Assembly (NCBI RefSeq): GCF_937127095.1 | Contig: NZ_CAKZLP010000014.1 | Location: 1 to 37,377, forward strand | Source: an uncultured Amphritea sp. | GTDB lineage: Bacteria; Pseudomonadota; Gammaproteobacteria; Pseudomonadales; Balneatricaceae | Length of the DNA stretch: 37,377 bases | Direction: 5' to 3' | Shown: piece by piece, positions 74 through 32,947 of the stretch | Layout: every line of letters begins with the position of its first letter | How positions within the stretch are numbered: the stretch's first letter is position 1 | The notes under the pieces: model-generated | Seen by the model: only the letters and a program-made list of their open reading frames with translations | Databases searched by the model: none | What the model was told of the DNA's origin: nothing | Position numbers and translations under genes: made by a program

Positions 74-103
74 CTAGACGGAAAACTGCGTTTTCCTTGC
101 TAG
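74..103. repeat. CTAG-framed palindromic repeat, forward orientation
   Basis: The element reads CTAG, AC, then stem GGAAAAC (80-86), loop tgc, stem GTTTTCC (90-96), then TTGCTAG. It is one copy of the dispersed family seen again at 25805, 27446, 30352 and 32719. The same GGAAAAC stem recurs in inverted orientation at 27453-27469. Confidence 0.8.
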
Positions 104-117
104 AAACAGCAGACCAG

Positions 118-142
118 AAAACCGCCTAAAGAGGCGGTTTTT
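118..142. terminator. Rho-independent terminator, bidirectional
   Basis: AAAACCGCC (118-126) pairs perfectly with GGCGGTTTT (133-141) across a 6-base loop. A-tract on the left and T-tract on the right allow it to work for both strands. It can serve the minus-strand operon ending at 196 and a plus-strand gene lying before the window. Confidence 0.8.
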
Positions 143-173
143 ATGTTTCAGGGGGCTTGTTTAGTCCTGTGTT

Positions 174-197
174 AACCCGGATGTTGCGGGTTTTTTT
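174..197 (+). terminator. Second terminator-like hairpin with T run
   Basis: AACCCG (174-179) pairs with CGGGTT (187-192), followed by a seven-T run (191-197). The T run points to plus-strand termination, implying a plus-strand transcript entering from the left edge. Its T run overlaps the stop codon of the minus-strand gene at 196. Confidence 0.55.
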
Positions 198-1602
198 AGT
201 GATAACCGAACATCAATAGCTGAATGACATAACCGACGCCCTCGGCTGTTTCTTTGGTGTCTGACCAGCCGCGTTTTGCCTGACGGAAGAAATCGCTGAC
301 AGGGTTCGATCGGTATCCATGCGCTTTTAAAAGAGCGATCATCTCTTTATTCCGGTGTTCCCGGGCATAACCCAACGCCCCCAGTTTGTCCTGCTCATCT
401 TTAAAGTCACGGTACTCTGGCAGCTTGAATGCTTCAAACATCGCCTTCATAACCGACGTATTGTTGTATTTAGCGGTTAGCCAGATTAAACGGCTGATAT
501 CATTGTTGTTGTAGTCTGTTCGGGGCAGTGAGTCGAATAGTGCTCCCAGCATCGCGCCGTCCTGATACTGGATCGCTAATGCCATATAAAACATCATGCA
601 GTCGTCATTGCAGCTGTTAAGGCCTGACGCCAGATCCCGTATCAGTGTATATGTTGTCCGGCGCTGCTCTAGATCGTAAACAGTGAGATCATGAACAATA
701 GCGGCTGCCAGACTATCCTGGTAAATATTCAGCTCGCGATAGTCATCGGTATAGTGGAAGATATCCAGGCCTGTATCGCGTAACTGCTGAATCTCTTTCA
801 TTGTGCCGGACTTACTGTAGTTGAAACTAGTGCTGAGAAAGAAAAATGTGTAGGGGTTGCCCTGATAGTTCTGCAACAGAATCGGTTGGTAGCGCTCGAT
901 CTGACGATAACGTCTGGTCGCAACAAGAATGTCTAATAGCTGGGATATTTTATACTGGCTGTTTTCAAACGGCGAAACAAACTGGCGGCTACTGTTGACC
1001 TTAAAAAAGGCTGGCATCAGCGGCGGGTTGTCCCAGATCAGAAAATCGTCCTGGGTCAGGTTGTCCTTGCCCGCTAACAGGGCGAACAAAAAATAGCTTT
1101 TGTCATCCAGTCTTTGTTTTAACTCAGCGTTGTAGTGTTGGTAGATATAATCCAGCTGCGTGGCAGTATCGCGGTTTAAATACATATCCAGGAGTGAGAA
1201 TTCAAGGCCTTGATCGATGGACCAGTTGCCATCGTTGTAAGTGATTTTTCGCGGCTGGTCTAACAGTGACATGCCATGGACAGACCCGGTTGCCGTAAAG
1301 AACGCTTCAAGAGCCTGAATGTCCAGTGTTTGCCACGAGGCAGTCATCACGATATCGGTAAAAGCTGTGGCCGCATCAGTCATCTCACTGGTGCTGGTGT
1401 CCACTCTGTATCCCGGGTCGTCGCACCGGGATATTTCGAAGCTGTTCTGCTTTTGTGCTTTGCGCATCTGTTCCAGTCGGGTTACCGGGTAGTGCTCACA
1501 GGCTATGACAAGGTCGGAACCCGCAGCATACAGCGTCGCAGATGCAGGCCAGAGTCCGGCCAACAACAGTCGTGTGATGATAAACAATCCTTGTCGTTTC
1601 AT
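196..1602 (-). CDS. Exported protein of unknown function, ankyrin-like C-terminus
   Basis: 468 residues; I do not recognise a named family. The N-terminus has a basic start and a hydrophobic stretch ending in an Ala-rich site near residue 27, consistent with a Sec signal peptide and a periplasmic location. Two close cysteine pairs (around residues 35/60, and a C-x3-C in 'NSCNDDCMM') would fit disulphides in an oxidising compartment. The last 120 residues show helix-turn-helix pairs of ankyrin type ('ALGYAREHRNKEMIALLKAHGY' pattern), weakly scoring by eye. It is the last gene of a four-gene minus-strand operon, 29 bases after the lipoprotein gene. GAGG lies about 12 bases before the ATG. Function not assigned. 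Confidence 0.75.
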   Translation of the reverse strand: MKRQGLFIITRLLLAGLWPASATLYAAGSDLVIACEHYPVTRLEQMRKAQKQNSFEISRCDDPGYRVDTSTSEMTDAATAFTDIVMTASWQTLDIQALEAFFTATGSVHGMSLLDQPRKITYNDGNWSIDQGLEFSLLDMYLNRDTATQLDYIYQHYNAELKQRLDDKSYFLFALLAGKDNLTQDDFLIWDNPPLMPAFFKVNSSRQFVSPFENSQYKISQLLDILVATRRYRQIERYQPILLQNYQGNPYTFFFLSTSFNYSKSGTMKEIQQLRDTGLDIFHYTDDYRELNIYQDSLAAAIVHDLTVYDLEQRRTTYTLIRDLASGLNSCNDDCMMFYMALAIQYQDGAMLGALFDSLPRTDYNNNDISRLIWLTAKYNNTSVMKAMFEAFKLPEYRDFKDEQDKLGALGYAREHRNKEMIALLKAHGYRSNPVSDFFRQAKRGWSDTKETAEGVGYVIQLLMFGYH

Positions 1603-1631
1603 GTTGGATGAATGCCTCAGTGGATGATTAG

Positions 1632-2462
1632 CTACTCTGCCGCTCTTGATTCCCGGTTGACATAAAGTTCAAGCATCGCCTCACTATGTTGAATGCCATT
1701 GAGTATTTCGCCGGGCAGCTGGGTGCTGAACTCCACTTTAGCGTAGGTGAGCCTGGCGCTGAGAGGCTTTCTGCCGCTTATCTCTATATGGCGGTTATGT
1801 GCTTTCATTAACGGCTTCAGCAGATCGATACTCCCTTTCGCTTTAATATGCCAGGGGGTAAGACTGCCGGAAAACAACTCATCTGCGGCGAGTGTCGACT
1901 CGGCAACGCTGATCTGATCAAGCGGCTGAATGCCCTCCCAGCTGACAGTCAGGGACTGATCTTTGAGTAATCTGTCTGGCCAATGGATACCCTGCAGATT
2001 TACGTGGGGTGGATGGTCGAAGTGCGCCAGACTAACCGGTGGGCGTCCTGGTAAGACCAGACTGACATCAATGCCCTCTTCGTTTATTGGAATATCATCG
2101 CCGGTATAATAGGTTTTCTGGCCGTACCATGCCCGGGATTGATCCCAGCGCGACAAGCGCACACCGTTGACGAGCAGATAGGCCTGTTGCAGCAGAATAA
2201 ATGCGCCTCCCTCGGTTAAGAGTTCCACGGAGATATCTTCTATGATCTGCGGATTGTCCAGATTGTCGCGAACGGTGATAGACATGCTCAAACTATCGGG
2301 GTCGAAAGGCTGAGTTTCGTCAAACAGTGTTAGCGTGTTGTTTGTCTTTTCCCGGTTGTTGGTGTTGTCTGTTTGTTCACTGCAGCCACAGAGGGTTGCG
2401 CAGAGGAATATGACCATCAGCAGTGTTAATGGCGTTACTGTCTTTTGACATTGGCTACTCAC
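1632..2462 (-). CDS. Putative lipoprotein of unknown function
   Basis: 276 residues. The N-terminus is a hydrophobic segment followed by a lipobox-like L-C-G-C near residues 24-27 and a polar Asn/Thr-rich linker, so it is probably lipid-anchored in the envelope; a cysteine at -2 is slightly unusual. The body is rich in beta-strand-like stretches and matches nothing I recognise. It starts at GTG: the GTGA at 2459-2462 overlaps the stop of the upstream 510-residue gene, a classic translational-coupling arrangement, and no other in-frame Met lies before the hydrophobic core. Third gene of the envelope operon. Confidence 0.75.
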   Translation of the reverse strand: MSSQCQKTVTPLTLLMVIFLCATLCGCSEQTDNTNNREKTNNTLTLFDETQPFDPDSLSMSITVRDNLDNPQIIEDISVELLTEGGAFILLQQAYLLVNGVRLSRWDQSRAWYGQKTYYTGDDIPINEEGIDVSLVLPGRPPVSLAHFDHPPHVNLQGIHWPDRLLKDQSLTVSWEGIQPLDQISVAESTLAADELFSGSLTPWHIKAKGSIDLLKPLMKAHNRHIEISGRKPLSARLTYAKVEFSTQLPGEILNGIQHSEAMLELYVNRESRAAE

Positions 2463-3991
2463 TCTTTTCCCCCAGCCTGATCATCAGGGCCCGGTTGTCC
2501 GGAAAGCTCGCTGGTGGTTGCAAATTCCCCCTGGTGCAGCTGGTATCCGGGAAGATCTTTATCCCATTGCAGGTATACCAATGATGAACCTGTCAGCAGG
2601 CAGCGATCTTCACAGAATGGTTCTGTTTGTTTATCCCGCAGCAGAAGGTTGAAGTCATGATCAAGCAGATAATATTGCTGTTGTTCGTTGTTTTTTAACC
2701 GCTCTATCAGGATCAGACTATCAGGGGCGTTGCTGCCGGTGAAACCGTGCTGTTGGCTCTCCTGTTCCGGGTCGATCAGATTGATCAGTTCGCCTTTGTT
2801 GGTGAGCACCGCATTGAAGGGTGTCCCCCGCTCGCTAATACGCCTGCGCATATCACGGAGTAAATCGTTGTAAACGCCCCGTAATAACGGGTTGTCAATC
2901 ATGCGTTGATAAGCGGGTGTGAGTTCCAGACCGGGAGTGGTCGGCATGGTCACACTTTGCAGGTAGTTGAGCTGTATCTCGGCGATGTGGCTCTTTTCCC
3001 TACCATAGAAACCCAGGAGTATCAGGTTTTTATCGGCGTCCCGGTAAAACGCGTTGATATAATAGTCTGTATAAGACTCAAGGTCGGGGCTTAGCCGGGT
3101 CTGCTGTATGGGGTCGCCGGATTTGTGGATGATGAAAACAGAGTCACCCCCACTCAGAATAAAGGCGTCATCGTACTCTTTCGCCAGGCTGAGGGCTTTG
3201 TAAACCAGAGCAATACCCGGGGACTTTGCCAGAAGGATCTGGCGTTGTTTGCTGCCTTCCCTATCAAGAAAATAAGCGTACTGTCGAAACGTCATGTAGT
3301 CCTTACCCGGGGGTATTTCTCTCCGAACCACTCCCGCCATGACCTGCCCGTCGGTTGTTATCATGAGTGAATTAATCAGCTCATTGTGAAACTCCTGGCG
3401 ACGTAAAATCTGCCCTTCAGCTGAGATGTAAAACAGGAAAGAGGAGAAACTGTTTTCCTCATCAATTATTAACGGGCTCATCGCCAGCAGAATCCGGCCA
3501 TCAGGCAGGCGCACCATGGGGCCCGAAGACACCAGGTCGTTATCAAACCGGTTAACCCAGAGCACAGAACCATCCGGGGCAAGATGAAACAGGCTTACGG
3601 CGATCTTCCGGCCGGTGCTGGTGGAAAACAGGTCCATCTCGGTTGAGCCATGACTGGACGGGCTGCGGAGCAGGTCGTCGATCGCACCGCGATCAAAATG
3701 GACCTCGATATCGTCCGAATGCAGGGTGGTGCCGGCAATGTAATAACCGGAATCATCGGCAGTTATTGCGCTAACGTGATTAATGTTCTGCAGCGGATGT
3801 TGCCAGCCCGGCACATATTTCCGGCTGTTGCGTGATGGCAATGTATCCAGCTCCAGGCTGGGATAGGCCTGGAGTCCGTCCAGCGGCTGCATACGCAGAT
3901 GATGCATCAGGTTATCAGGAATGGTGTTGCTGCTTGCCCAAAGGCAGGGGGCGAGCAGGATCATGGCGGTAAGGGTAAGCGTGCGCATCAT
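2459..3991 (-). CDS. Exported protein, probable beta-propeller-like
   Basis: About 510 residues from the ATG at 3991, whose ATGA overlaps the upstream stop codon; a start three codons further upstream (TTG) is less likely. A signal peptide is clear (two Met, Arg, hydrophobic core, 'LWA-SS' site). The body carries repeated units of the form 'G..LW..RF.....' and 'DG.ILLA', with pairs such as 'FHLAPDGSVLWVNRF' and 'YISAEGQILRRQEF' that resemble blades of a beta-propeller; similar units appear in the C-terminal half of the gene upstream. No catalytic motif is visible. Likely periplasmic or surface protein working with its operon partners; function unknown. Confidence 0.75.
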   Translation of the reverse strand: MMRTLTLTAMILLAPCLWASSNTIPDNLMHHLRMQPLDGLQAYPSLELDTLPSRNSRKYVPGWQHPLQNINHVSAITADDSGYYIAGTTLHSDDIEVHFDRGAIDDLLRSPSSHGSTEMDLFSTSTGRKIAVSLFHLAPDGSVLWVNRFDNDLVSSGPMVRLPDGRILLAMSPLIIDEENSFSSFLFYISAEGQILRRQEFHNELINSLMITTDGQVMAGVVRREIPPGKDYMTFRQYAYFLDREGSKQRQILLAKSPGIALVYKALSLAKEYDDAFILSGGDSVFIIHKSGDPIQQTRLSPDLESYTDYYINAFYRDADKNLILLGFYGREKSHIAEIQLNYLQSVTMPTTPGLELTPAYQRMIDNPLLRGVYNDLLRDMRRRISERGTPFNAVLTNKGELINLIDPEQESQQHGFTGSNAPDSLILIERLKNNEQQQYYLLDHDFNLLLRDKQTEPFCEDRCLLTGSSLVYLQWDKDLPGYQLHQGEFATTSELSGQPGPDDQAGGKE

Positions 3992-6936
3992 GGTTTCCAA
4001 TCGAAATATATCTGACAGCTGTCGGCATCAATCCGGGCAAGTACGGCGTTACTGTTGGCCGAACTGTCAGCATCCTTTATATAGGCAGCGACCAGTCCGT
4101 CCTTCCAGGGGGCGGCGGCTGCAATTATGTCTCCGGCGTCACCGATTAAGCTGGTGCTGAAGCTGGCTTCATCTGGCGAGAGACAGAAGAGCACCGGTTG
4201 ATTGATCTTGTCGTACTGGCTGTTACCGTAGCGTTGTTCCTGTCTGCCGAGACCGATGATGCGGCCTTGTGGTGTTTGCAATAGCCGCTCCAGTCCTGGA
4301 ATACTTTTCAGCTGACTGATGAGACTGCCATCCTGAAGGGATAGTTTGGCAAGGGTCTCTTCGCTGTCAATGGTGTAGAACAGATGATGAGTGGGGTCGG
4401 TTAACAGACCCTGCATGCTGTCCATATCGTGATATATCCGGCTCCAGATCTGTTCTCCCTGTGGCGATAGCAAGGCGGCAAAGGTCCGGAAAAAGTCGTT
4501 GTACTGGTTGAGGTGCCCTGTTACCAGCAGTGTGCCGTCCGGCAGTTGCTGCATCGCATTGATTGTCGACCGGACATAGCCAAAATCGAGTTGATAATGA
4601 CCCAGCAGATCGCCATTGCTATCCAGCACTTCATAGGCGGCATCCATCCCGTGAGTACCGTAGGCATAGAGTTTGCCCTCCGCGCCGGATAGCAGACCCT
4701 CTGTGTGATCCAGCAGAATGGTATCGCCTTTGGCAAATGGCTGAGCTTCTTTGAACAGGAGTTGATGGGTGCCTGACACAAAGTCCTGCTCTCCATTGCG
4801 TGCTACTAGCCAGCCTGGCCTATCCTCTGTTTCATGGCGGATATTAGTGGTCGAAAACGTCTTCTGACCGGTGCCAGGGATTGTGCGGATCAGTGCCAGC
4901 ATGTTATCGGCCTCGCCCAGAATAGTGCAGCCAGCGGTATCGCAGGACATGCTGTCAACGGTGGTGCTGAAGGGAGATTGGTCCAGGTCCAGGTAGTGGA
5001 AGGTTTTGATCTCGAAGTTATCTGAACGTTTTTGAATCACGACCTGTTCAGGGCCCGCAAGGATGATATACGCATGACTGTCGCTGACCGCATAGTCGAT
5101 CGGTGGCAGATCTCCGCTGCCAATTAACGCGGTATTTGACATCTCGCCATCGGTGCTCAGGATCGATGCAAGATAACGTGAAACTAAGCGGGGTGGTTCG
5201 GATGAGGAGAGATATATTTCCGGGCGGAAGAGGATCATCGTCCGGTCAGGATAGTAGTCCTGTTTTTGTAGATCGTAAGTGAAAAAACGGTGGAAGGTTT
5301 TTTTGCCGACGGTTGCAACGGGCACCGCGGGAACAAAAGCCTCAGGACGAGTGGCGATATTGCCCACCGGGGTGAGTGAATTATCGTATGCAACGGTTGT
5401 TCGGCTGGTGGTCAATGCATAGCCTTCGGAATGTATCACCAGTGATTCGAATACACCCAGAATATCGGTTTGCTGCAGTGGCTCTCCATGCTCACTGAAT
5501 AGCGTTAGCCGGGTCTTCTGTCGACCATCAAGAAAACGATTTTGCGCTAAGAGCAGTTTACCGTTGTTGAAGTACAGCCCTGCGGGATTATCGAGAATAT
5601 TAAAAAATCGTTCCTGATCTAACGTCTGCTCCCAGAGAATGGTGCCGGTGGTGTCTTGTCGGGACAGCTGGTAGCGTTTTTCTGTGTTTGAATACAACAG
5701 AACATAGAGATCGTCCTGAGGCGAGGCTGCCAGCTTGAGTGGCAGGTTAGGGTAGGGCAAATAGTGGTTGAACCGGCTGCCCAATGAATAGGCCATAGTG
5801 TAAAAACGGTTGATCTGTTCCTGAGTGGCCGCGCCGTTATCGATCAGCAATTTGGCCATTTCAAGGTGCTCATCTGAGGTATGTTCCAGCATCCTTTCCA
5901 TCACCGTGATGCCATAGTACAGAGCTGTCTGGGGATTTATCCCGCTATCAATGTAACGCTGCACCAGTGCATAGTTGTATTCACCCACCGCCTCACCAAA
6001 AGGGTTCTCACTGGCGCAGGGGATGCCCTGATCGAAAAGTACGACGGCTGTCGGGTCATCAGAATCGCAATACTGGTCAACGTATCCTGGGCCGAATATG
6101 GCATAGTCCGGATGGGTAATAACCAGATCGTAGGGCAGTTTTTTCAGCATGTCGAAAAAGTCCCAGCTATCGTCCTCTGTATAGCGAACAGACGAGAACA
6201 GCGCTTCGGTTAACAGGCGCTGGCGGGGTGACGCGCTGGCAAAGTCGATGGGGTTGAGCAGATTTTCGACATTTTCTTGCGAGAACTGTTCAGGGTAGAG
6301 GCTATAGAGTTGGAAGAGGGCATCACCACTGAGATATTCCTGCAGCATGTTGGTGGCCTCTGCCTGGGTCGGGCGATATCCGGCAGCAAGAATCTCACTT
6401 GTCTGAGAACTATCGGAAGGGTCGTAGGCGGCTTGCAATATTTGTGGATCGGCGAAGGGCAGGTTGTTTCTTAACCACCAGACCATTTCGTCTGTATCGT
6501 CGGGTTTTAGTGTTGCCGATAAACGCTTAAACGCCTCATGATCGATCAGTGCGCCACGTTCTATCAGGTCACTTGCTAATGAGTGCTGACCGCCAGCAAC
6601 GGCCGCGACCAGTGCATTGTCGCCGTTACTGTCAGGCTTACTGAAGTTGTGTGGTGTTGTCTGTAGGTAAAGCTGTTCGAGACGCTCACGATCACCCTCA
6701 AAGGCCGCCTGGGTCATGGCGTTTCTGCCATTCGAAAGTGGGGCATAAGGCTCTTTGTAAGCGTCAGCGGGGTGGGGTGTGTAACTGTGTAGGCCAGATT
6801 TTTTGACTTTTTCAGGCGGAGTGGCGTTTGCTGTTTCCGGACTGAACGATGAGGGGCGCTTATCGGGATTGATCGTTACTGCGATGAAGATCAGGGAGCT
6901 GATAACAGCGACGAATAAGAGTGTTTTTTTAAACAT
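3988..6936 (-). CDS. Large envelope protein: signal anchor, ankyrin-like repeats, propeller-like C-terminus
   Basis: 982 residues from the ATG at 6936, chosen because a basic residue pair and a hydrophobic segment (residues 2-21, signal anchor or uncleaved signal) follow it immediately; the frame stays open 18 codons further upstream. Residues about 45-130 look like ankyrin repeats ('NGRNAMTQAAFEGDRERLEQL', 'NGDNALVAAVAGGQHSLASDL') and a second ankyrin-like pair lies near residues 315-385. From about 400 on, repeating 'G..L......DG..' units suggest one or two beta-propellers. First gene of the four-gene operon; the next gene starts in its stop codon. No named homologue recognised. Confidence 0.75.
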   Translation of the reverse strand: MFKKTLLFVAVISSLIFIAVTINPDKRPSSFSPETANATPPEKVKKSGLHSYTPHPADAYKEPYAPLSNGRNAMTQAAFEGDRERLEQLYLQTTPHNFSKPDSNGDNALVAAVAGGQHSLASDLIERGALIDHEAFKRLSATLKPDDTDEMVWWLRNNLPFADPQILQAAYDPSDSSQTSEILAAGYRPTQAEATNMLQEYLSGDALFQLYSLYPEQFSQENVENLLNPIDFASASPRQRLLTEALFSSVRYTEDDSWDFFDMLKKLPYDLVITHPDYAIFGPGYVDQYCDSDDPTAVVLFDQGIPCASENPFGEAVGEYNYALVQRYIDSGINPQTALYYGITVMERMLEHTSDEHLEMAKLLIDNGAATQEQINRFYTMAYSLGSRFNHYLPYPNLPLKLAASPQDDLYVLLYSNTEKRYQLSRQDTTGTILWEQTLDQERFFNILDNPAGLYFNNGKLLLAQNRFLDGRQKTRLTLFSEHGEPLQQTDILGVFESLVIHSEGYALTTSRTTVAYDNSLTPVGNIATRPEAFVPAVPVATVGKKTFHRFFTYDLQKQDYYPDRTMILFRPEIYLSSSEPPRLVSRYLASILSTDGEMSNTALIGSGDLPPIDYAVSDSHAYIILAGPEQVVIQKRSDNFEIKTFHYLDLDQSPFSTTVDSMSCDTAGCTILGEADNMLALIRTIPGTGQKTFSTTNIRHETEDRPGWLVARNGEQDFVSGTHQLLFKEAQPFAKGDTILLDHTEGLLSGAEGKLYAYGTHGMDAAYEVLDSNGDLLGHYQLDFGYVRSTINAMQQLPDGTLLVTGHLNQYNDFFRTFAALLSPQGEQIWSRIYHDMDSMQGLLTDPTHHLFYTIDSEETLAKLSLQDGSLISQLKSIPGLERLLQTPQGRIIGLGRQEQRYGNSQYDKINQPVLFCLSPDEASFSTSLIGDAGDIIAAAAPWKDGLVAAYIKDADSSANSNAVLARIDADSCQIYFDWKP

Positions 6937-7039
6937 GTAATTACTTAATGGCCATCCGTGGGAGGAAAATAATACCCCGGATAGCCGCACTTTTCATGTC
7001 AGTCAGGGCGCAAACCAGCGACCTGTATCAAACAAAAAG

Positions 7040-7606
7040 TCACTTTATTTCATTTAGCAGTGTTTCAGTGCTATCAATCCGGGCATAGGCAAATCCCAGC
7101 GCCGCCATAAATGAAGCGTGTACCTGCTCGGCGGGGACGGTGATGCCGTTGAATGCCTGATCTCTTGTGGCGCAGGCATCCTGAGCGACGGTGACGTTGT
7201 AGCCCAGATCGGCTGCGGCACGAACGCCAGCATCGATACACAGATGGCTCATCGCCCCGGCCACGATCAGATTTTCAATGTTTAAGGTCTCGAGAACCTG
7301 TTTCAGGTTGGTCTCTTTAAAACTGTTTGCTGAGTGTTTCAAAATAACCGGTTCATCGTTTACCGCGGCAACGGTGCTGTGAATCTGTGCACCTTGCGAT
7401 CCGGGCTTAAAGAAGGGAGCCTCATCGGTTTTAAATTCATGGCGTACATGGATAACCAGCATCTGTTTTTCACGAAAAGCGGCCAGTAGTTTTGCGCCGT
7501 TATCCGCAGCACGCTGAGTGTTATTCAGTTCCCATTTACCGCCCGGAAAATAGTCATTCTGAAAATCGATTAACAGCAGTGCTGTATTCGGCTGAACCTG
7601 TGTCAT
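7040..7606 (-). CDS. Isochorismatase-family cysteine hydrolase
   Basis: 188 residues from the ATG at 7606; AGAGG sits about 8 bases before it, whereas the 31-codon upstream extension has no family similarity. The family triad is visible: Asp14 in 'LLIDFQND', Lys90 in 'VILKHSANSF' and the nucleophile Cys123 in 'SHLCIDAGVRAA'. Members hydrolyse amides or isochorismate-like substrates (nicotinamidase, ureidoacrylate and similar); the substrate cannot be told from sequence. It is divergent from the GlxA-type regulator at 7736, a pairing common for this family, which suggests that regulator controls it. Cytoplasmic, soluble. Confidence 0.9.
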   Translation of the reverse strand: MTQVQPNTALLLIDFQNDYFPGGKWELNNTQRAADNGAKLLAAFREKQMLVIHVRHEFKTDEAPFFKPGSQGAQIHSTVAAVNDEPVILKHSANSFKETNLKQVLETLNIENLIVAGAMSHLCIDAGVRAAADLGYNVTVAQDACATRDQAFNGITVPAEQVHASFMAALGFAYARIDSTETLLNEIK

Positions 7607-7735
7607 AGCGATACCTCTATCAGTAGTATTGGTTGATATGGCTATTATCCGCTGACTCAGTTCTCTATACTGGAGTCGTTTTTGACATATTAAGAGCAAT
7701 AAGTGACATATAAGTAATATATAGCGTCGGTGTTT

Positions 7736-20195: not shown

Positions 20196-22802
20196 ATGAC
20201 AACGCTTCACGAAGACTTGCGGGATGATGTGCGGATGCTGGGTGACTGTCTCGGACAGACAATTGCTGAGCATAAAGGGCAGGCGTTCCTAGACAAGATC
20301 GAAACCATCAGAGCCCTTTCGAAGTCGGGCCGTTCCTCAGGCAAGCCGGTCGATGACGAGTTGTTAAAAGCGCTCAGTGAATTGAGTGATGATGAACTGC
20401 TACCAGTTGCCCGGGCATTTACTCAGTTTCTCAATCTCTCCAATATTGCTGAAGAACATCACCGGGTTCGCCGCCGCTCCGGCGTCATGGATGTGTGTAC
20501 CAGTGATTCCTTCTGTGGTTTGCTTGGGCGACTGCAGCAGCAGGGTTTAACCAAACAACAGATTGCTGCAGCGGTGCAGGATATGGATGTTGAGCTGGTG
20601 CTGACCGCCCATCCGACCGAGGTCAACCGGCGCACCTTGATTCAGAAGTTTGATGCGATTACCGAATGTCTGCAACGGATCGACCGTGGTGAAGATCTGC
20701 GTCACCGATTGCATGAGCTGATCAGCCAGGACTGGCACACCGATGCCATCCGTAAACAGAGACCGACCCCGATTGATGAAGCGAAATGGGGCTTTGCGGT
20801 GATCGAAAACTCCCTCTGGGATGCCGTGCCAGTGTTTTTGCGGCACATCGACCAGCAGCTGTTTGATGCGACTGGCGAACATCTGCCGCTGAGTAGCTCG
20901 CCGGTGCGCTTTGCCTCCTGGATGGGCGGTGATCGTGATGGCAATCCGAATGTGACCTCTGTAACCACCGAGAAAGTGCTGTTGCTGTCCCGCTGGATGG
21001 CGGCGGATCTCTATATCAAAGATATTGACCGGCTGCGCAGTGAGTTGTCGATGAACCGCTGTAGCGCTGAGATGCGCGCCCTGGTCGGTGATCACCCGGA
21101 ACCGTATCGTGAGCTGCTGCGTGAGGTCGAAGCGCATCTGATTAAAACCAAATTCTGGACCACTGAGCGGCTTGAAGGCCGTCCGGTGGATAAAGAGGGG
21201 GTCTATATTGTTCCCCAACAACTGCTTGAACCTCTACTGCTGATCGATGCTTCACTGCGCAGTTGCGATATGGGGGTTATTGCCGATGGCCTGTTATCCG
21301 ATACGATTCGCCGGGTGGCCTGCTTTGGCATGACCCTGGTGAATCTGGATATTCGTCAGAATGCGGATCGTCATGCCGAAGTGTTTGATGAACTCACCGG
21401 TTATTATGGTATTGGTTGCTACAGCGAGTGGAGCGAAACCAATAAGCAGATGTTTCTGCTAAAAGAGTTGCAGGAAAAACGTCCCCTGTTGCCTCGCGAA
21501 TGGCAGCCCTCCGCCGATGTCCAGGAGGTGCTGGATACTTTTAGTGTCGTAGCCCGGGAAGAACAAAACTCACTGGGGTCCTATGTGATCTCCATGGCCA
21601 GTCAGCCATCGGATGTACTGGCGGTTATCCTGTTGCTGAAAGAGAGCGGTATTCGCCACAATATGCGGGTAGCGCCCCTGTTTGAAACCCTGGATGACCT
21701 GGATAATTCGGAAAACTGTATCCGCCAGTTGCTGGCGATCCCCTGGTATAAGACTTATACCGAGGGCCATCAGGAGGTCATGATCGGCTATTCCGATTCG
21801 TCTAAGGATGCCGGACAGCTGGCGGCGGCCTGGGGGCAGTATCGGGCTCAGGAAGTGCTGACTAAGGTATGTAAAGAATATGGCGTACATCTGACCCTGT
21901 TTCACGGTCGAGGCGGTACGGTTGGCCGGGGTGGTGGCCCAAGCCACACCGCGATTCTGGCACAACCTCCGGGTTCTGTGGCCGGCAGCCTGCGGGTGAC
22001 TGAGCAGGGCGAGATGATCCGCTTCAAATTTGGCATCCCTGAAATAGCGGTGCGTAATCTCGAGCTATATACCTCAGCGACGCTTGAAGCAACCCTGGCA
22101 CCCGCTCCCGGGCCGAAGTCGGAGTGGCGTCAGCTGATGGATGAGATGTCCCTGACCGGTCTGACCGCCTATCGCGAGGTGGTGCGTTTTGACCCGCAGT
22201 TTGTACCCTATTTCCGCTCGGCCACGCCAGAGCAGGAACTGGCAAAATTGCCATTGGGAAGCCGTCCGGCAAAGCGTAAAGCGGATGGTGGCGTTGAAAG
22301 TCTGCGGGCGATCCCCTGGATCTTCGCCTGGACGCAGATCCGCCTGATGCTGCCCGCCTGGCTGGGCAGTGATGTTGCCCTGCAGGAGACCCTGGATAAA
22401 GGCCAGTTTGAACTGGTGCAGACGATGCGCAGAGACTGGCCGTTCTTCCGCTCTTACATGGACATGCTGGAGATGGTGATGGCTAAGTCAGATGGCAATA
22501 TCGCTGCCTATTATGAAAAGCGGTTGGTATCTGAAGAGCTGGCAGTGCTGGGCGCGGATCTGCGCTGTCGACTGGCGAATACCATTCAGCTGGTGAAAAA
22601 GATTAAGCAGCAGGAGACTCTGCTTGAGCATAGCCCGGTGATTCGCCAGTCAATTGAAGTGCGCAACCCCTATATTGATCCACTGCACTTTCTGCAGGCG
22701 GAACTGCTCTATCGGGACCGCAATCAACCGGATGAGCGACTGGAGCAGGCGCTGATGATTACCATGGCGGGGATCTCGGCGGGGATGCGCAATACTGGCT
22801 GA
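20196..22802 (+). CDS. ppc: Phosphoenolpyruvate carboxylase
   Basis: 868 residues from the ATG at 20196, chosen over an open 20-codon extension because AGGGGA lies 8 bases before it and the family begins here. Catalytic His139 is in 'VLTAHPTEVNRRT'; the second active-site loop 'FHGRGGTVGRGGGPSH' lies near residue 568, with 'GYSDSSKDAGQLAAAW' before it and 'IPWIFAWTQIRLMLPAWLG' after it. It ends in the usual ...NTG. Carboxylates phosphoenolpyruvate to oxaloacetate, the main refill of the citric acid cycle. Length is a little short of E. coli's 883. Monocistronic by context. Confidence 0.97.
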   Translation: MTTLHEDLRDDVRMLGDCLGQTIAEHKGQAFLDKIETIRALSKSGRSSGKPVDDELLKALSELSDDELLPVARAFTQFLNLSNIAEEHHRVRRRSGVMDVCTSDSFCGLLGRLQQQGLTKQQIAAAVQDMDVELVLTAHPTEVNRRTLIQKFDAITECLQRIDRGEDLRHRLHELISQDWHTDAIRKQRPTPIDEAKWGFAVIENSLWDAVPVFLRHIDQQLFDATGEHLPLSSSPVRFASWMGGDRDGNPNVTSVTTEKVLLLSRWMAADLYIKDIDRLRSELSMNRCSAEMRALVGDHPEPYRELLREVEAHLIKTKFWTTERLEGRPVDKEGVYIVPQQLLEPLLLIDASLRSCDMGVIADGLLSDTIRRVACFGMTLVNLDIRQNADRHAEVFDELTGYYGIGCYSEWSETNKQMFLLKELQEKRPLLPREWQPSADVQEVLDTFSVVAREEQNSLGSYVISMASQPSDVLAVILLLKESGIRHNMRVAPLFETLDDLDNSENCIRQLLAIPWYKTYTEGHQEVMIGYSDSSKDAGQLAAAWGQYRAQEVLTKVCKEYGVHLTLFHGRGGTVGRGGGPSHTAILAQPPGSVAGSLRVTEQGEMIRFKFGIPEIAVRNLELYTSATLEATLAPAPGPKSEWRQLMDEMSLTGLTAYREVVRFDPQFVPYFRSATPEQELAKLPLGSRPAKRKADGGVESLRAIPWIFAWTQIRLMLPAWLGSDVALQETLDKGQFELVQTMRRDWPFFRSYMDMLEMVMAKSDGNIAAYYEKRLVSEELAVLGADLRCRLANTIQLVKKIKQQETLLEHSPVIRQSIEVRNPYIDPLHFLQAELLYRDRNQPDERLEQALMITMAGISAGMRNTG

Positions 22803-23878: not shown

Positions 23879-23895
23879 CCCCCGGTTGTTAATGT

Positions 23896-25057: not shown

Positions 25058-25787
25058 ATATATCTTTGGTATCCACGCCGCCACTACCACCCTGCAACGT
25101 GATAGCAAGCGGGTTAAAGGGATGTGGGTACTGAAAGGGCGGGTCGACGCGCGGATGCAGACGTTGCTGGACCTGGCCGCTGAAAAGAGTGTCCGGGTCG
25201 AGTGGAGCGGACGGAAAGAGCTGGATGAGATGGCTGAAAACGGCGTGCATCAGGGTGTGGTGGTGGCCTGTGAACCGATTCAGGCCAAGACCGAGCAGTT
25301 TCTTGATGCGCTGCTGGAAAAACTGGAAGAACCTGCTTTCCTGTTGGTGCTGGATGGCGTGACCGATCCTCACAACCTGGGTGCCTGTTTGCGTACCGCC
25401 GACGCCGCCGGTGTCCATGCGGTGATCGCCCCCAAAGACAAATCAGCGCCGCTCAACGCGACCGTCAGCAAAGTCGCCTGTGGTGCCGCAGAAGTGGTGC
25501 CCTACGTACTGGTCACCAACCTCGCCCGCACCCTGAAAGACCTGCAACAGCGCGGTATCTGGATCACCGGCACCGCTGGCGAAGCCGACACCCTGATCTA
25601 CAATGCCGACCTGAAAGGCCCGATGGCACTGGTGATGGGCGCCGAAGGCCAGGGCATGCGCCGCCTCACCCGCGAACACTGCGACTTCCTGGTGAAAATC
25701 GATATGGCAGGGGAGGTCTCTTCCCTTAACGTATCGGTGGCGACGGGGGTGTGTTTGTTTGAGGCGGTAAGACAAAGAAAAGCTTAA
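25047..25787 (+). CDS. rlmB: 23S rRNA (guanosine-2251-2'-O)-methyltransferase RlmB
   Basis: 246 residues, as in E. coli (243). The N-terminal substrate-binding domain opens '[13 protein letters not shown]'; the SpoU/TrmH knotted methyltransferase domain starts near residue 95 with '[28 protein letters not shown]' and carries '[18 protein letters not shown]', '[13 protein letters not shown]' and '[14 protein letters not shown]' (motifs 1-3). It methylates G2251 in the peptidyl-transferase P loop. The ATG lies inside the end of hemH, so the two are coupled. Confidence 0.96.
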
Positions 25788-25804
25788 GAGCCGTTGCTAG
25801 TGGT

Positions 25805-25855
25805 TAGATGGGGAGCAAGCTCCCCTTGCTAGAACGTCACTTCGTGACTTGCTAG
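25805..25855. repeat. Two tandem CTAG-framed palindromic repeats
   Basis: Unit 1 (25805-25832): stem GGGGAGC-aa-GCTCCCC then TTGCTAG. Unit 2 (25829-25855) shares that CTAG: AAC, stem GTCAC-ttc-GTGAC, TTGCTAG. Both forward. They start right after rlmB. The rest of 25788-26153 shows no gene or other structure. Confidence 0.8.
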
Positions 25856-26153
25856 AAAAAGCGGGGAGGTTCTGTAGGAGGCGCGCTGGGATGCCCTCTG
25901 GGTACCTCGCGGTTACGTTAACCGGCTAAGCAATTGCCTTGCACAGCACTTTGTTGCACACTCAGTTTATGGATAATTTAGCCAAGGCTAGATAAACACA
26001 CTGATCAATGAGCCCATTCATCATCAGGGATGAGAATGCAGTAGCTGCCGTTTAGCTTTTCTCTTTATCACAGCGGACCTTGTAAAACGATAAAGCTTGC
26101 AAGCTATAGAGCCTTGTAAGGTCGGATTAATAGAGTTGTTAAGTGGCTTACGT

Positions 26154-27170
26154 ATGAAGATAATCAGCGATTTCTTAGGTGAAATGAAGCGCCAATCGGA
26201 GCGCAGCCGATGTCTGCATTTCGAGCACGGCTCTCGCTGTACAGAGCATATTTCTGCCCACTCTATTCAAAATAGTGGTCAGCTGACAGAAATTTCCGAA
26301 AATGGACACGTTTACAAAATAAACGGACACTTTTCGACCCTGAAGAAAACCGGAGGGAAACCCGCACCCAAGAAGATAGGCCGAAATGATGCTTCTACAT
26401 TTCTCGGTTTTTGTGGCACTCACGATACACAGCTTTTCCGGCCCATTGATACTATTCCACTCAAACCAACTTACGAACAAGTTGCCCTTTATGCTTACCG
26501 TTCACTTTGTCGAGAGTACTTCGTTAAGGAAAACGCAGTACGAACGCTAGAGAATCTAAAGGGGCATGAGGCCCTTACGAAGGAAAAATCAGAGTTTCTT
26601 GAGGCCGCACTAAAAGGCTTTGGTATCGGCTTTGAGGGTTTAATACATCACAAGCGACACTATGATAACGCCATTTCTAATGGCAAGTTTCATGAGTTTA
26701 AATATACCGTTTTTATAGCACATTCCAGGCAGGACTTAGCTTTTTCCGGGGTGCTGTACCCACATTTTGATTTTCTTGGGCGCCAGCTTCAGGATCTAGG
26801 AGTGGAAGGAGTCCCTCTTGACCTGATTACTTTTTTTTCTGCTCCAGCTGAAGAGGGTTGGGCCATCGGTATTGCGTGGCACGAGTCAAGTGATCGATAT
26901 TGTAGAGAGTTTCTTAGGTCGCTCGCAACGCATGTCTACGAGGGAGCATCACTTGATGACGCAATACTTCGGTTTGTTTTTTCATGCTGTGAAAATCATG
27001 CCATTCGAATGTCATGGTGGGATGGTCTTAAAGAAAAGAGTCAGTCTTCCATTTTAGAGCGAGTGCGATTTATGACAAGCCTAGAATGTGGTTATGATCC
27101 GCGCCACTTGTGTGTAGTGCTTGAAGGTATTGCGAAATGGGAGTTTGGACATGTTTTGTCCAGCGACTGA
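26154..27170 (+). CDS. Unrecognised Cys/His-rich protein in a repeat-flanked accessory patch
   Basis: 338 residues from the ATG at 26154; an upstream in-frame TTG is unlikely. The N-terminus has a dense Cys/His pattern: C20, H22, H25, C29, H32, H36 within 'CLHFEHGSRCTEHISAHSIQ', then 'NGHVY', and later 'FCGTHD' with C87 and H90. Two such clusters split by about 50 residues look like a metal-binding site of the treble-clef/HNH sort, but no HNH catalytic motif is certain. 'HSIQ' and 'LFRPID' look like conserved signatures of an uncharacterised family. The body is soluble with no membrane segment. It has no strong ribosome binding site and lies alone between two repeat blocks, compatible with a transferred or defence-type gene; that is a guess. 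Confidence 0.7.
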   Translation: MKIISDFLGEMKRQSERSRCLHFEHGSRCTEHISAHSIQNSGQLTEISENGHVYKINGHFSTLKKTGGKPAPKKIGRNDASTFLGFCGTHDTQLFRPIDTIPLKPTYEQVALYAYRSLCREYFVKENAVRTLENLKGHEALTKEKSEFLEAALKGFGIGFEGLIHHKRHYDNAISNGKFHEFKYTVFIAHSRQDLAFSGVLYPHFDFLGRQLQDLGVEGVPLDLITFFSAPAEEGWAIGIAWHESSDRYCREFLRSLATHVYEGASLDDAILRFVFSCCENHAIRMSWWDGLKEKSQSSILERVRFMTSLECGYDPRHLCVVLEGIAKWEFGHVLSSD

Positions 27171-27244
27171 CCCGCGACCTAACAAATTGGTCTGAAGCGT
27201 TTGTAAAACGAAACTAAGGTTGATATGGCATTATTCGAGTTATC

Positions 27245-27278
27245 TCGTACCCACGCTCCCGCGTGGGAATGCATACGG
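27245..27278. repeat. Widespread palindrome CCCACGC-GCGTGGG
   Basis: CCCACGC (27250-27256) mirrors GCGTGGG (27261-27267) around TCCC, followed by AATGCA. This motif resembles an extragenic palindrome met in many proteobacteria. It is unlike the CTAG-framed family. Confidence 0.65.
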
Positions 27279-27445
27279 AACTTTAATAATGGGTAGAAGC
27301 TGTTACAAAATTGTGTTGGACAGGCGGCAGTTAGATTTCACTTAGCCACAAAGAAGATGAGACTGTTCTTGTTTTTCGATCCTGTTAACGGGGATGTTGG
27401 GCTTCTCCTCAAAGGAAGACCAAATGCTTTCTTGCTCTGTCTTTT

Positions 27446-27534
27446 CTAGCAAGGAAAACGAAGTTTTCCGTCTAGCTACTCGCCACTAGCAAGTTGCGAA
27501 GCAACGTCTGATCAGCCGCGAAGCGGCGGTCTAG
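27446..27534. repeat. Three CTAG-framed palindromic repeats, inverted orientation
   Basis: Unit 1 (27446-27475): CTAGCAA, stem GGAAAAC-gaa-GTTTTCC, GTCTAG. Unit 2 (27486-27510): CTAGCAA, GTTGC-gaa-GCAAC, GTCTG. Unit 3 (27511-27534): ATCA, GCCGC-gaa-GCGGC, GGTCTAG. The last CTAG overlaps the stop codon of the minus-strand GGDEF-EAL gene. The rest of 27171-27445 holds only the palindrome at 27245. Confidence 0.85.
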
Positions 27535-30122: not shown

Positions 30123-30295
30123 CGTTCTGTCCTTAATGATTTGTCAGGGAGAAACAGAAGTGCCGGGAAAACCAACGATGTAAAAAGAGATCAAATTTAC
30201 ACGGGCTACCCAGATTTAAATCTACAACATCAGAAACGTTTTGTCGCTTTGGGTGTGTGCATTTTGGTGAGACTGGCGAAATGTATTATTGCGAT

Positions 30296-30324
30296 AAAAA
30301 AGAGAACCAAAGGCTCTCTTTTTT
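30296..30324. terminator. Terminator between GGDEF-EAL gene and ackA
   Basis: AAAAAAGAGA (30296-30305) pairs with TCTCTTTTTT (30315-30324) across a 9-base loop. A and T tracts at both sides make it bidirectional; on the minus strand it ends pta-ackA. Confidence 0.75.
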
Positions 30325-30351
30325 ACGTTTTTTCCAGCTACTAACTAACCA

Positions 30352-30377
30352 CTAGCAAGTTGCGCAGCAACGTCTAG
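30352..30377. repeat. CTAG-framed palindromic repeat, inverted orientation
   Basis: CTAGCAA, stem GTTGC-gca-GCAAC, GTCTAG. It has the same stem as the copy at 27493 but loop gca in place of gaa. It sits 8 bases after the ackA stop. Confidence 0.85.
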
Positions 30378-30384
30378 CTACTTT

Positions 30385-31569
30385 CTAAGCCAAAACCTCT
30401 TGCGCATGCAGGGCGATCATCGCCTCCTCGTTGGTGGGAATTACCCGAACCAGCACTTTAGCGCTGGCTTTGCTAATGATCGCTTCACCCTCTTTGTTGG
30501 CGCTTTTGTTCAGTTTAACACCCAGCCATTCGAGTTGGTCGCAGATACGTTTGCGCAGTTTACTGTCGTTTTCGCCGACGCCACCGGTAAACACCAGTTG
30601 CTCTAAACCTTGCAATGCTGCGGATAAACGTCCGATCTCCAGCGCTGCACGGTAGGCGAACATGGCGATCGCTTCTTCCGCTTCTGGCTGGTCTGATTGT
30701 TCCAGTTCCAGCATATCGGAACTGATACCAGAAACTCCCAGCCAGCCACTCTCTTTGTAGAGGAAGTTTTCCAACTGGTCGGTATCCATGTGGTAGTGGC
30801 GTTGCAGGTAGAGCAGTACGCCGGGGTCGATGTTGCCGGTACGGCTGCCCATTGGCAGGCCGTCAACCGCAGTAAAGCCCATGGAGGAGGCGATCGATTT
30901 TCCTTTCTTGACTGCGCACATGCTAGCGCCCGCGCCGAGGTGACAGATCACGGTTTTTTCGCTTTCGGCACCCTTGCCAATTTTTTCCAGTGAACGCTGT
31001 ATGAACTCATAAGAGAGCCCATGGAAACCATACTTATGCACTCCAGCTTCGGTGTATTTGCGGGGGATGGCGTAATGGCGCTCAATGTCGGGCTGGCCGA
31101 TATGGAACATGGTATCAAAGCAAGCGATCTGCGGCAGTTCAGGCTCCAGTCGCTGACAGGCGCGGATCAGCTTGAGATTGTAGGGTTGATGCAGTGGGGC
31201 CAGGGGAATCAGCTCTTCCAGTCTGAGGAGAATCTTCTCATTGATCTTCACCGGGTCACTGAAGCTTTGGCCGCCATGCACGACTCGATGGCCAAAGGCG
31301 CTGATGCGACTGTCGGGCATCTGCTTACGCACCCACTGGATAACCTGATCCAGACAGGCCTGGTGGCGGTCTTCGGTGTCGATCGCGCTCATATCCGGTT
31401 GATGTTGCTCCAGTGTTTCACCACGGCTGGAGATGACTTTCATCACCGGAGCGTTGAGAATATTGCTTAGTTTAAACTGATAGAGACACTCAGTACTCTC
31501 GGCCTGCGGTGCAAACAGGGCACATTTCAGGCTGGAAGATCCACCATTAACGGTCAGAACCAGACTCAT
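30385..31569 (-). CDS. ackA: Acetate kinase
   Basis: 394 residues (E. coli 400). 'VLTVNGGSSSLKCALF' binds phosphate at the N-terminus; 'GHRVVHGGQSFSDPV', 'CFDTMFH', 'KYGFHGLSYEFI', 'CHLGAGASMCAV' and 'VDGLPMGSRTGNIDPG' follow, and 'LVFTGGVGEND' closes the ATP site. Converts acetyl phosphate + ADP to acetate + ATP, and the reverse. The start codon lies two bases after the pta stop with GGGAG inside the end of pta, so both are read from one mRNA. Confidence 0.97.
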   Translation of the reverse strand: MSLVLTVNGGSSSLKCALFAPQAESTECLYQFKLSNILNAPVMKVISSRGETLEQHQPDMSAIDTEDRHQACLDQVIQWVRKQMPDSRISAFGHRVVHGGQSFSDPVKINEKILLRLEELIPLAPLHQPYNLKLIRACQRLEPELPQIACFDTMFHIGQPDIERHYAIPRKYTEAGVHKYGFHGLSYEFIQRSLEKIGKGAESEKTVICHLGAGASMCAVKKGKSIASSMGFTAVDGLPMGSRTGNIDPGVLLYLQRHYHMDTDQLENFLYKESGWLGVSGISSDMLELEQSDQPEAEEAIAMFAYRAALEIGRLSAALQGLEQLVFTGGVGENDSKLRKRICDQLEWLGVKLNKSANKEGEAIISKASAKVLVRVIPTNEEAMIALHAQEVLA

Positions 31570-31570
31570 C

Positions 31571-32512
31571 TTACTTTACTCCCTGTGGGTGCAGAACCAT
31601 GTGAGATGCCAGGGCGCAGGAGGCCAGGCGTGCCAGCGTGCCGTCAGAACGGCTGTTGAGGATAATCGGGGCGCGGGCACCGAGTGCCAGACCGGCTGAT
31701 TTTGCATCTGCCAAGTAGATCAGTTGCTTAGCGATCATATTCGCGGACTCAAGGTCCGGGGCCAGCAGAATGTCAGCATCTCCGGATACTGCAGAGGTAA
31801 TGTGCTTATCAATGGCGGCTTGCAGGGATATGGCGTTATCAAACGCCAGCGGCCCATCCAGAATCGCGCCGGTGATCTGACCCCGGTCAGCCATTTTACA
31901 CAGGGCTGCGGCGTCGATAGTGCTCTGCATCGATGGCTTAACTTTCTCTACCGCCGCCAGAATAGCCACTTTAGGCTCTTTCATTCCCAACGCATGGCAG
32001 AAATCTATCGCATTTTGCACGATATCCCGTTTGGTTAGCAGGTCGGGGGCAACATTGATTGCCGCGTCGGTGATCATCAGTGGTTTATGATAGTTCGGCA
32101 CGTCCAGTACAAAGATGTGGCTCAGGCGACGTTCGGTGCGAATCCCCAGTGTTTTATGAATTACGGCACTGAGCAGTTCTGACGTGCCCAGGTCGCCCTT
32201 CATCAGGGTTTCTGCCCGGGCTTCACGAATCAGTCGTACGGCTTGTTCAGCAGCGGCATGGCTGTGTTCTACATCGATCAGCTCATAGTTATCGATATTC
32301 AGTTCATATTTATCAGCTGCCGCTCTGATCTTGGCTGAAGGGCCTACCAGAATTGGAGTTATCAGGCCGCGTTCAGCCGCTTCGATGGCACCCATCAGAC
32401 CGTTGTGTTCAACCGGATGAACCACTGCTGTGGTGACAGGACGGGCTTTAACCGCTTCATCAATAAAGAATTCCAGCTGGTTATGGATGGGGGGCTTTTC
32501 TGAAAGAATCAT
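31571..32512 (-). CDS. pta: Short-form phosphate acetyl/butyryltransferase
   Basis: 313 residues from the ATG at 32512, chosen because TGGAG lies 8 bases before it and the 20-codon extension has no family character. It is the short Pta/Ptb type (PTA_PTB domain only), lacking the N-terminal DRTGG/AAA domains of E. coli Pta. Signatures: 'LMKGDLGTSELLSAVIHK', 'SHIFVLDVPNYHKPLMITDAAINVAPDL', 'VAILAAVEKVKPSMQSTIDAAAL', 'GDADILLAPDLESANMI' and a Ser/Arg-rich end. Moves the acetyl (or acyl) group between CoA and phosphate. First gene of pta-ackA. The acyl specificity cannot be told. Confidence 0.92.
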   Translation of the reverse strand: MILSEKPPIHNQLEFFIDEAVKARPVTTAVVHPVEHNGLMGAIEAAERGLITPILVGPSAKIRAAADKYELNIDNYELIDVEHSHAAAEQAVRLIREARAETLMKGDLGTSELLSAVIHKTLGIRTERRLSHIFVLDVPNYHKPLMITDAAINVAPDLLTKRDIVQNAIDFCHALGMKEPKVAILAAVEKVKPSMQSTIDAAALCKMADRGQITGAILDGPLAFDNAISLQAAIDKHITSAVSGDADILLAPDLESANMIAKQLIYLADAKSAGLALGARAPIILNSRSDGTLARLASCALASHMVLHPQGVK

Positions 32513-32718
32513 TTTACTGCTCCAGGTATTCAACGGTTGATAACGCCGGGTGACCGCGTTAAACCTATACATTTGGTACGATCAGCTTTTACATTTACTC
32601 TATGACAAGAGTATGACCTTCTTATGACGCAGTGCAACATGCAGGTTAGTTAAAATGAGTAGTTTTTGTGTAAACCGATGATTAACTGATATATCGTATT
32701 TGCTAAATTTAATAGGGG

Positions 32719-32775
32719 CTAGAACGTAGCTGCGCGACTGCTAGTTGTTAGACGGAAACTTCGTTTCCTTGCTAG
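32719..32775. repeat. Two CTAG-framed palindromic repeats, forward
   Basis: Unit 1 (32719-32744): AAC, stem GTAGC-tgc-GCGAC with one mismatched position, TG, CTAG. Unit 2 (32748-32775): TTAG, AC, GGAAAC-ttc-GTTTCC, TTGCTAG. Part of a larger block to 32947 upstream of pta. Confidence 0.75.
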
Positions 32776-32829
32776 AAAAAGTAATAAAAGACAGTAGCTA
32801 GATGTGAACAACGTATCTGAAATCTACAG

Positions 32830-32947
32830 CTAGACGTCGCATCGCCGCTGGCTCGTGGCTAGCTAGCTAGCAAGTAAAACGAAGTTTTACGTCTAACCAC
32901 TAGCAAGACACGAAGTGTCGTCTAGCGAGTCGCTCAGCGACGTTCTG
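32830..32947. repeat. Cluster of one decayed and three intact CTAG-framed repeats, inverted
   Basis: A decayed forward unit at 32830-32850 (CTAGAC, GTCGC-atc-GC...), then CTAGCTAGCTAG, then unit E4 (32867-32895): GTAAAAC-gaa-GTTTTAC; E5 (32900-32925): GACAC-gaa-GTGTC, GTCTAG; E6 (32922-32947): CTAGCGA, GTCGC-tca-GCGAC, GTTCTG, sharing CTAG with E5. It is the densest block of the family. No gene fits between 32513 and 33021. Confidence 0.8.

Follow-up and report, generated by a model that had tools for sequence, protein, structure and literature searches.

A clade-specific hairpin repeat family of Amphritea, possibly a new REP-like non-autonomous DNA element

The stretch of DNA analysed here, referred to as the window, comprises 37,377 nucleotides of an uncultured Amphritea sp. 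(GCF_937127095.1, contig NZ_CAKZLP010000014.1, positions 1 to 37,377). It carries short hairpin units set in a CTAG-containing frame. An earlier note on this DNA described twelve such hairpins with a fixed frame and changing stems. We located all twelve in the window; eleven are perfectly paired, and the one at 32720–32744 has a single mismatch. The frame is imperfect in some units, such as 27508 (CTGATCA start), 25804 (ATCTAA end), and 32922 (CTAGCGA start, TCA loop). Together with a degenerate thirteenth copy, the units are as follows.

74..103, minus strand: unit CTAGCAA-GGAAAAC-GCA-GTTTTCC-GTCTAG, 3' of a gene ending at 196 (minus strand) and a terminator-like hairpin.
25804..25832, minus strand: unit with stem GGGGAG, loop CTTG, and end ATCTAA, having a CTAG in common with the next unit.
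25830..25855, minus strand: unit GTCAC-GAA-GTGAC, followed by AAAAAGC, as read from the SpoU-type methylase gene (called rlmB).
27446..27475, plus strand: unit GGAAAAC-GAA-GTTTTCC, between convergent genes.
27486..27511, plus strand: unit GTTGC-GAA-GCAAC, with end GTCTGA.
27508..27533, plus strand: unit GCCGC-GAA-GCGGC in the frame CTGATCA...GGTCTA; the CTAG overlaps the stop codon of an EAL/GGDEF gene ending at 27531.
30352..30377, plus strand: unit GTTGC-GCA-GCAAC, adjoining the acetate kinase stop codon (30385).
32720..32744, minus strand: unit with stem GTCGC/GCTAC (one mismatch) and loop GCA.
32748..32775, minus strand: unit GGAAAC-GAA-GTTTCC, followed by AAAAAG.
32830..32855, minus strand: degenerate thirteenth copy, with three mismatches to the pattern.
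32867..32896, plus strand: unit GTAAAAC-GAA-GTTTTAC, with CTAGCTAGCTAG directly before it.
32900..32925, plus strand: unit GACAC-GAA-GTGTC.
32922..32947, plus strand: unit CTAGCGA-GTCGC-TCA-GCGAC-GTTCTG, having a CTAG in common with the previous unit.

With up to three mismatches allowed, the unit pattern matches the window four times and is absent from 100 dinucleotide shuffles. Framed hairpins with a GNA loop number eight, versus none in each of 20 Markov controls. CTAG itself is depleted approximately fourfold in the window relative to its composition (38 copies, with about 145 expected), and 21 of these copies are inside array sequence (461 bases, delimited by hand). Rfam 15 gave no match in the window at the gathering score, and 14 further loci gave only rRNA, tRNA, and group II introns. 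Corresponding units are seen in other Amphritea genomes (G numbers; L numbers denote loci): G011 and G009 have a GGGGAGC-type hairpin at the position of 25804..25832, and the G001 counterpart of 30352..30377 has the loop GAA instead of GCA.

The unit is composed of the heptamer CTAGCNA, a stem of 2–7 bp capped by C(GNA)G, and a GT. In a census starting from CTAGCAA alone, the GT(T)C frame follows at 261 of 336 sites, and 238 of these 261 have a stem of at least 2 bp. Stem length ranges from 2 to 7 bp; it is 5 bp in 162 of the 238, 5–7 bp in 185, and 2–4 bp in 53. Among the same 238 sites, a GNA loop is seen at 217 and a three-nucleotide loop at 220, and 225 close with a C-G pair. G and C stand outermost at 247 of the 261 framed sites.

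On both sides of the hairpin, the frame behaves as a direct repeat. The left tetramer is CTAG in 283 and the right one in 219 of 369 framed hairpins, and GTAG appears in neither list. When both flanks have diverged from CTAG (n = 55), they are identical direct copies in 20 cases and inverted copies in only 3, and we therefore regard the frame as a direct-repeat heptamer, not an outer stem. CTAG-CTAG pairing does occur in several predicted folds, but the direct identity of the diverged flanks led us to reject a kept outer stem. The earlier note had taken CTAG for a swapped version of the tetramer of repetitive extragenic palindromic (REP) elements. It is not simply that, as CTAG belongs to the heptamer CTAGCNA.

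Many units are joined into arrays, and 85 of 169 arrays contain two or more units. Of 122 linkers between same-strand neighbors, 121 measure 9, 2, 10, or 3 nt; in the arrays that we read, this corresponds to GT(T) with or without one heptamer CTARCNA. The 373 units collected by a pairing-demanding finder have 28 stems, and the five commonest cover 236 of them; such a small number of recurring types fits the expectation if units are copied. Adjacent units have identical stems in 2 of 122 cases, versus 10 expected. We draw no mechanism from this low identity, because stem pairs recur as composites (one pair in 17 copies) and the cases are not independent. The finders behind the array, stem-type, linker, and flank censuses demand pairing (the array census tolerates one mismatch), and all statements on covariation, loops, and mismatches are taken only from searches and censuses in which pairing was not demanded. 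In L123 and L119, the arrays are interspersed with another type of hairpin, CTCGCG-TTCTTT-GCGAG, whose loop is rich in pyrimidines, and in some CTAG units a GCTCTTT-like loop replaces GNA.

That the hairpin rather than the stem sequence is maintained, as the earlier note held, is borne out by the pairing of the free positions. In the pattern search, 65 of 69 sites pair fully at three free positions, with 11 different paired stems, and the chance of full pairing per site is approximately 1/64. Among 24 distinct sequences, 96.7% of the cells pair, and the covariation score is 0.627 versus 0.192 after shuffling; none of 500 shuffles reaches it, and slid versions score at most 0.170. In a wider frame, 252 of 286 units are fully Watson-Crick at the three free pairs, versus 42 after shuffling arms among units. 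Since units share ancestry, these counts are not independent events. Superimposing 41 corresponding unit pairs, some of them from multi-copy regions and hence not independent, revealed 25 with the same stem, 10 with one to three pairs altered on both sides, and 6 with one-sided changes only. At a multi-copy locus (L027 versus L128 and L129), a separate comparison of the window's own genome with G001 shows two units that differ symmetrically by three bases per arm, GTCGC/GCGAC versus GC/GC; another pair from that comparison, at window position 22109, is a coding-sequence false positive.

The family is narrowly distributed. The window's own genome (5.1 Mb) has 46 strict copies and none of the reversed-pattern control, which gives the genome-wide count that the earlier note had called for. 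The exact pattern (frame fixed, three stem pairs free) was matched in 84,980 species genomes by 62 stretches, all in seven assemblies, six of them under the name Amphritea and the seventh under 'Oceanospirillales bacterium'; this search may leave out records belonging to the window's own genome. Strict copies are present in 10 of 17 Amphritea genomes, where the reversed control gave two matches in total (G005, G010). The earlier note had also proposed a covariance model and a scan of relatives. Our model, R1, returned the same ten carriers as the strict pattern, with up to 68 copies per genome, and matched none of 99 other genomes of the family. Its counts are lower bounds, as approximately 66 candidates were scored per genome under stricter filters and weak or numerous copies were missed. 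In a protein tree of rlmB and ackA, the ten carriers form one group next to the non-carriers G002, G008, and G014, with a distant group of four. As far as searched, the repeat is confined to one clade of one genus.

A phage source found no support, as viral contigs had no match with two patterns and phage records had none. The sole plasmid match is a 94-kb plasmid of Amphritea japonica (L174; NZ_AP025762.1, pJCM14782), which contains pnp and rsuA plus one CTAG array; pnp and rsuA are usually chromosomal genes. In the annotation of this plasmid, two convergent genes flank the array, which reaches into the end of a YciC family gene.

We also notice that copies are unevenly spread in G003. Only 4 of 42 strict copies on its contig C1 lie between 0.6 and 3.0 Mb, and L119 and L120 (G003:C1:348000-384000) have very dense CTAG arrays among ordinary-looking genes, with segments of approximately 210 bp tandemly repeated, each with an array. 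The resemblance of GTCTAAC to the attC motif RYYYAAC raised the idea of an integron; it was dropped, as the dense G003 region carries, by eye, ordinary core genes.

Most arrays occupy the 3' ends of genes. As the earlier note had proposed to check, they are mostly intergenic: 145 of the 169 arrays lie between genes, 5 lie inside genes, and 19 sit at the edge of a locus, with genes called as long open reading frames (ORFs) and many loci fetched for carrying the repeat. Convergent genes surround 64 of the 145 intergenic arrays, versus 69 of 326 intergenic regions of at least 60 bp in the same loci, while 21 of the 145 lie between divergent genes. The gene on the 3' side of the array ends toward it in 102 of 145 cases, within 30 bp in 45 of these 102. 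Terminator-like sites reading away from the array within 130 nt occur on the 5' side of 43 and the 3' side of 7 of the 169 arrays (shuffled, 2 and 7), and those reading toward it occur at 40 and 10, respectively. TTTT within 25 nt is found at 109 of 169 arrays on the 5' side versus 36 on the 3' side, the 5' ends often being T-rich. At the acetate kinase locus of the window's own genome, G001, G010, and G009, a stop codon is followed by a reversed array, an A-run, and a terminator. The usual order is thus a stop codon, the array with its TNC-loop strand as the message, and then a terminator where one is found. At present, the arrays probably serve as ordinary spacers at 3' ends, a role shared by many REPs.

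Two further aspects of the surroundings were examined. In L125–L129, L131, and L132, oppositely oriented arrays lie approximately 100–200 bp apart, several of them around a bidirectional terminator-like hairpin. An association with rRNA is not general, since arrays are near rRNA genes in L125 and L127 (G003) and absent from such a position in the other eight loci compared. Within the window, four adjacent same-strand ORFs of 468, 276, 513, and 1000 aa occupy 196–6990 on the minus strand. They have no NCBIfam or PADLOC match and none in Pfam above the cut-off; the last has a weak ankyrin match. A 357-aa ORF between two arrays (26097–27170, plus strand) has no match in Pfam, NCBIfam, or PADLOC.

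The earlier note suggested REP elements as the nearest kind, and our comparison agrees: the units are small, dispersed, mostly intergenic palindromes in which pairing is kept over stem sequence. It also knew no named family of this shape, and we found no description of one in the open-access literature searched. Most REPs have been sorted into GTAG and CGTC superfamilies, the latter apparently without a dedicated transposase, and GTAG REPs have stems of 5–13 bp and loops of 2–20 nt (PMC3733652, table 1). Most Amphritea units lie within this range, the 53 short stems outside it. Like GTAG REPs, they are small intergenic palindromes beside a conserved motif that contains a tetramer, located at gene 3' ends in many copies with paired stem variation, and the TAG of the tag can supply a stop codon. 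Unlike GTAG REPs, they have CTAG within a two-sided direct-repeat heptamer, a GNA triloop, frequent same-strand arrays, and no linkage to REP-associated tyrosine transposases (RAYTs).

The CGTC REPs, which include dRS3 of Neisseria, come closest among the described repeats; they are likewise palindromic and intergenic with no dedicated transposase known. They are described with 8–9 bp stems that almost always start with A-T, with 4–5 nt loops, and as rarely clustered (PMC3733652). In contrast, the typical Amphritea stem is 5 bp long with G-C outermost, the loop has three nucleotides, and arrays are frequent. An unpaired CGTC at one end and a short CCA-like tail at the other are expected of CGTC REPs; in Amphritea, GTC comes after the stem, with the C before it paired, and CTAGCNA is on the other side of the hairpin. 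We place the Amphritea repeat with the REP kind, outside both described superfamilies. In general description, the repetitive hairpin-forming and double-hairpin elements of mitochondria are also similar, being small, intergenic, and possibly mobile; these belong to organelle genomes.

The genus also contains orthodox GTAG REPs, which coexist with the CTAG units. In Amphritea, we observed two RAYT types beside such repeats, one with GTAGGAG... (L099–L102, L109, L110) and one with GTAGGT/GTAGGG... (L033, L103–L106, L111, L118); L100 has ten copies of one repeat at a spacing of mostly about 70 bp. The loci of the 152-aa RAYT-like genes have 6 to 24 GTAGGA(A/G) motifs in six of eight cases, L113 and L114 having only 1 and 2, and all seven loci of E. 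coli-like RAYTs have 3 to 13 GTAGG(T/G) motifs. The linked Y1/RAYT transposase that the earlier note had proposed to look for was sought in the window's own genome and in the 17 Amphritea genomes, and such a link is not supported for the CTAG units: only 2 of 26 PF01797 loci (flanks up to 1.5 kb) contain one, while 17 of 34 rlmB and ackA comparison loci do. These two are L031, with one unit approximately 120 bp behind the Y1 gene, and L097, with a two-unit array about 1 kb off. PF01797 matches occur in 12 of the 17 Amphritea genomes, including the non-carriers G002, G008, and G014; the carrier G004 has none, and no RAYT type tracks the repeat across the 17 genomes.

Other mobilizing genes were also compared with the distribution of the repeat. 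Reverse transcriptases are found in 4 of 17 genomes, of which three are carriers and one match is below the family cut-off. Seven of the 10 carriers have IS110, as do 5 of the 7 non-carriers. Neither tracks the repeat; thus, none of the searched families (Y1, reverse transcriptase, IS110) provides an associated transposase, as in CGTC REPs. Near-identical group II introns (1.9 kb, 94.9–99.8% identical) are present in G003 and G000 (L170, L172, L173). We read three introns in G003 and one in G000, and none is inserted in an array.

Directly observed are how the units are built, how their stems covary, that they form same-strand arrays behind stop codons and often beside terminators, that they are limited to a single clade, and that they lack RAYT linkage. 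We tentatively favor the idea that this clade-specific hairpin family of Amphritea is a new REP-like non-autonomous DNA element, whose folded single strand may well be what is recognized and copied, through an enzyme other than the resident RAYTs. The form recognized would be a single-stranded DNA hairpin, namely the GNA strand, because the GNA cap is very stable in DNA and G.T is not clearly preferred over other mismatches. On the first point, PMC4686876 describes GNA-loop mini-hairpins with G-C pairs, such as GCGAAGC, as extraordinarily stable in DNA. GCGAAGC occurs without change in the shortest unit, and the majority of units end in C(GNA)G; the d(GCGAAGC) mini-hairpin itself is a biophysical motif and not a genomic repeat family. 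On the second point, the 48 mismatched cells in 5-bp units consist of 9 G.T, 7 A.C, and 32 others, where random expectation is 8:8:32, and this census weakly favors DNA over RNA. We speculate that a trans-acting enzyme other than the resident RAYTs copies the folded strand. Arrays would then grow and shrink through recombination or slippage between the direct-repeat heptamers, and the arms may stay matched through re-copying (template switching) or through the need of the copying enzyme for a stem.

Several results weigh against this proposal. No mobilizing gene was found among the Y1, reverse transcriptase, and IS110 families tested. In array-free relatives, the intergenic stretch is too different for a clean empty site or a target duplication to be made out; automatic empty-site labels were excluded from the counts, since diverged CGAG arrays had been mislabelled as empty. 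At two loci compared across species, the arrays are mostly in the same place in the carriers, and recent movement is therefore not demonstrated. Single-strand transposition of the IS200/IS605 type tends to show a strand bias that depends on the replichore. In G003, we saw no such bias, with 9 of 27 units on the plus strand in the first half of contig C1 and 6 of 15 in the second half (counted by hand, with the origin assumed at the contig start). Standard DNA folding of three units gives the GNA strand no consistent advantage over its complement (−3.5/−2.9, −5.1/−5.7, and −5.4/−4.8 kcal/mol), and RNA parameters favor the GNA strand in all three. Finally, G.T makes up 4 of 5 mismatches in 6–7 bp stems and 13 of 53 in all stems together, versus about 9 expected, and a modest excess of G.T wobble across all stems is possible.

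We also considered a bolder and rather unlikely form of the proposal. The repeat would then represent a third tagged REP-like class without a transposase of a known kind. Arm-templated copying would rewrite the arms pairwise and leave only the heptamer and the ultra-stable GNA cap unchanged, and the palindrome would maintain itself through its single-stranded DNA fold.

It is possible, though somewhat unlikely, that the units are instead RNA 3'-end elements. The hairpins would act on the mRNA level, after the stop codon and before the terminator, where they would protect 3' ends or help termination, and selection on the RNA would keep the pairing. The location of the arrays and their preferred orientation agree with such a role, and the three tested units fold stably as RNA on both strands. 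REPs elsewhere have been argued to act as RNA, partly because of their 3'-end position (PMC3733652). On the other hand, the transcript usually carries the TNC-loop strand, whereas RNA folding favors the GNA strand. G.T mismatches in 5-bp units are no more frequent than random, versus 9 of 22 mismatched cells in the GTAG REPs of the same loci; these numbers are small, and the longer CTAG stems differ in this respect. In addition, an RNA role fits poorly with the arrays between divergent genes, among them window 32720–32947.

A doubtful, though serious, rival to our favored reading needs no dedicated enzyme. Replication would stall at the palindrome, the polymerase would copy one arm from the other and thereby convert a change in either arm into a paired one, and the arrays would spread by segment duplication and heptamer slippage. 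Template switching at quasipalindromes could yield matched arms without selection; PMC7202029 describes it as turning imperfect palindromes into perfect or more perfect ones. The unit-pair comparison, with ten two-sided changes and six one-sided only against 25 stems kept, is consistent with this, as are the symmetric difference of three bases per arm at the multi-copy locus and the tandem duplication of array-bearing segments. Such self-templating does not account for the constancy of the GNA cap, G-C first pair, and flanking heptamer beside a varying inner stem, or for the spread of the family to dozens of separate intergenic sites within one clade.

Mobilization by a RAYT that was lost or acts from a distance, with CTAG replacing GTAG, is improbable. 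The REP-like architecture and location would suit it, as would the units near Y1 genes in L031 and L097. A group 3 TnpA-REP can bind a substrate mutated to CTAG, which it cleaves less actively (PMC8266576), so cross-mobilization is conceivable. However, the interpretation fails because few Y1 loci are near units, GTAG motifs abound instead at 13 of the 15 RAYT-like loci, the distributions mismatch, and G004 has no PF01797 match. Membership of the CGTC superfamily is very improbable: the last C of the hairpin plus GTC reads CGTC, and the described CGTC REPs likewise lack a transposase (PMC3733652), but the stem and loop already fail, the C is paired in Amphritea units, and the rarity of described clusters contrasts with the many multi-unit arrays here.

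REPs are usually explained through RAYT transposases, and the CGTC superfamily, which lacks a transposase, is a puzzle in this respect. The Amphritea family adds a further transposase orphan. Its coexistence with ordinary GTAG REPs in the same genus provides a built-in control for finding out what copies these repeats and whether selection or template switching keeps their arms matched.

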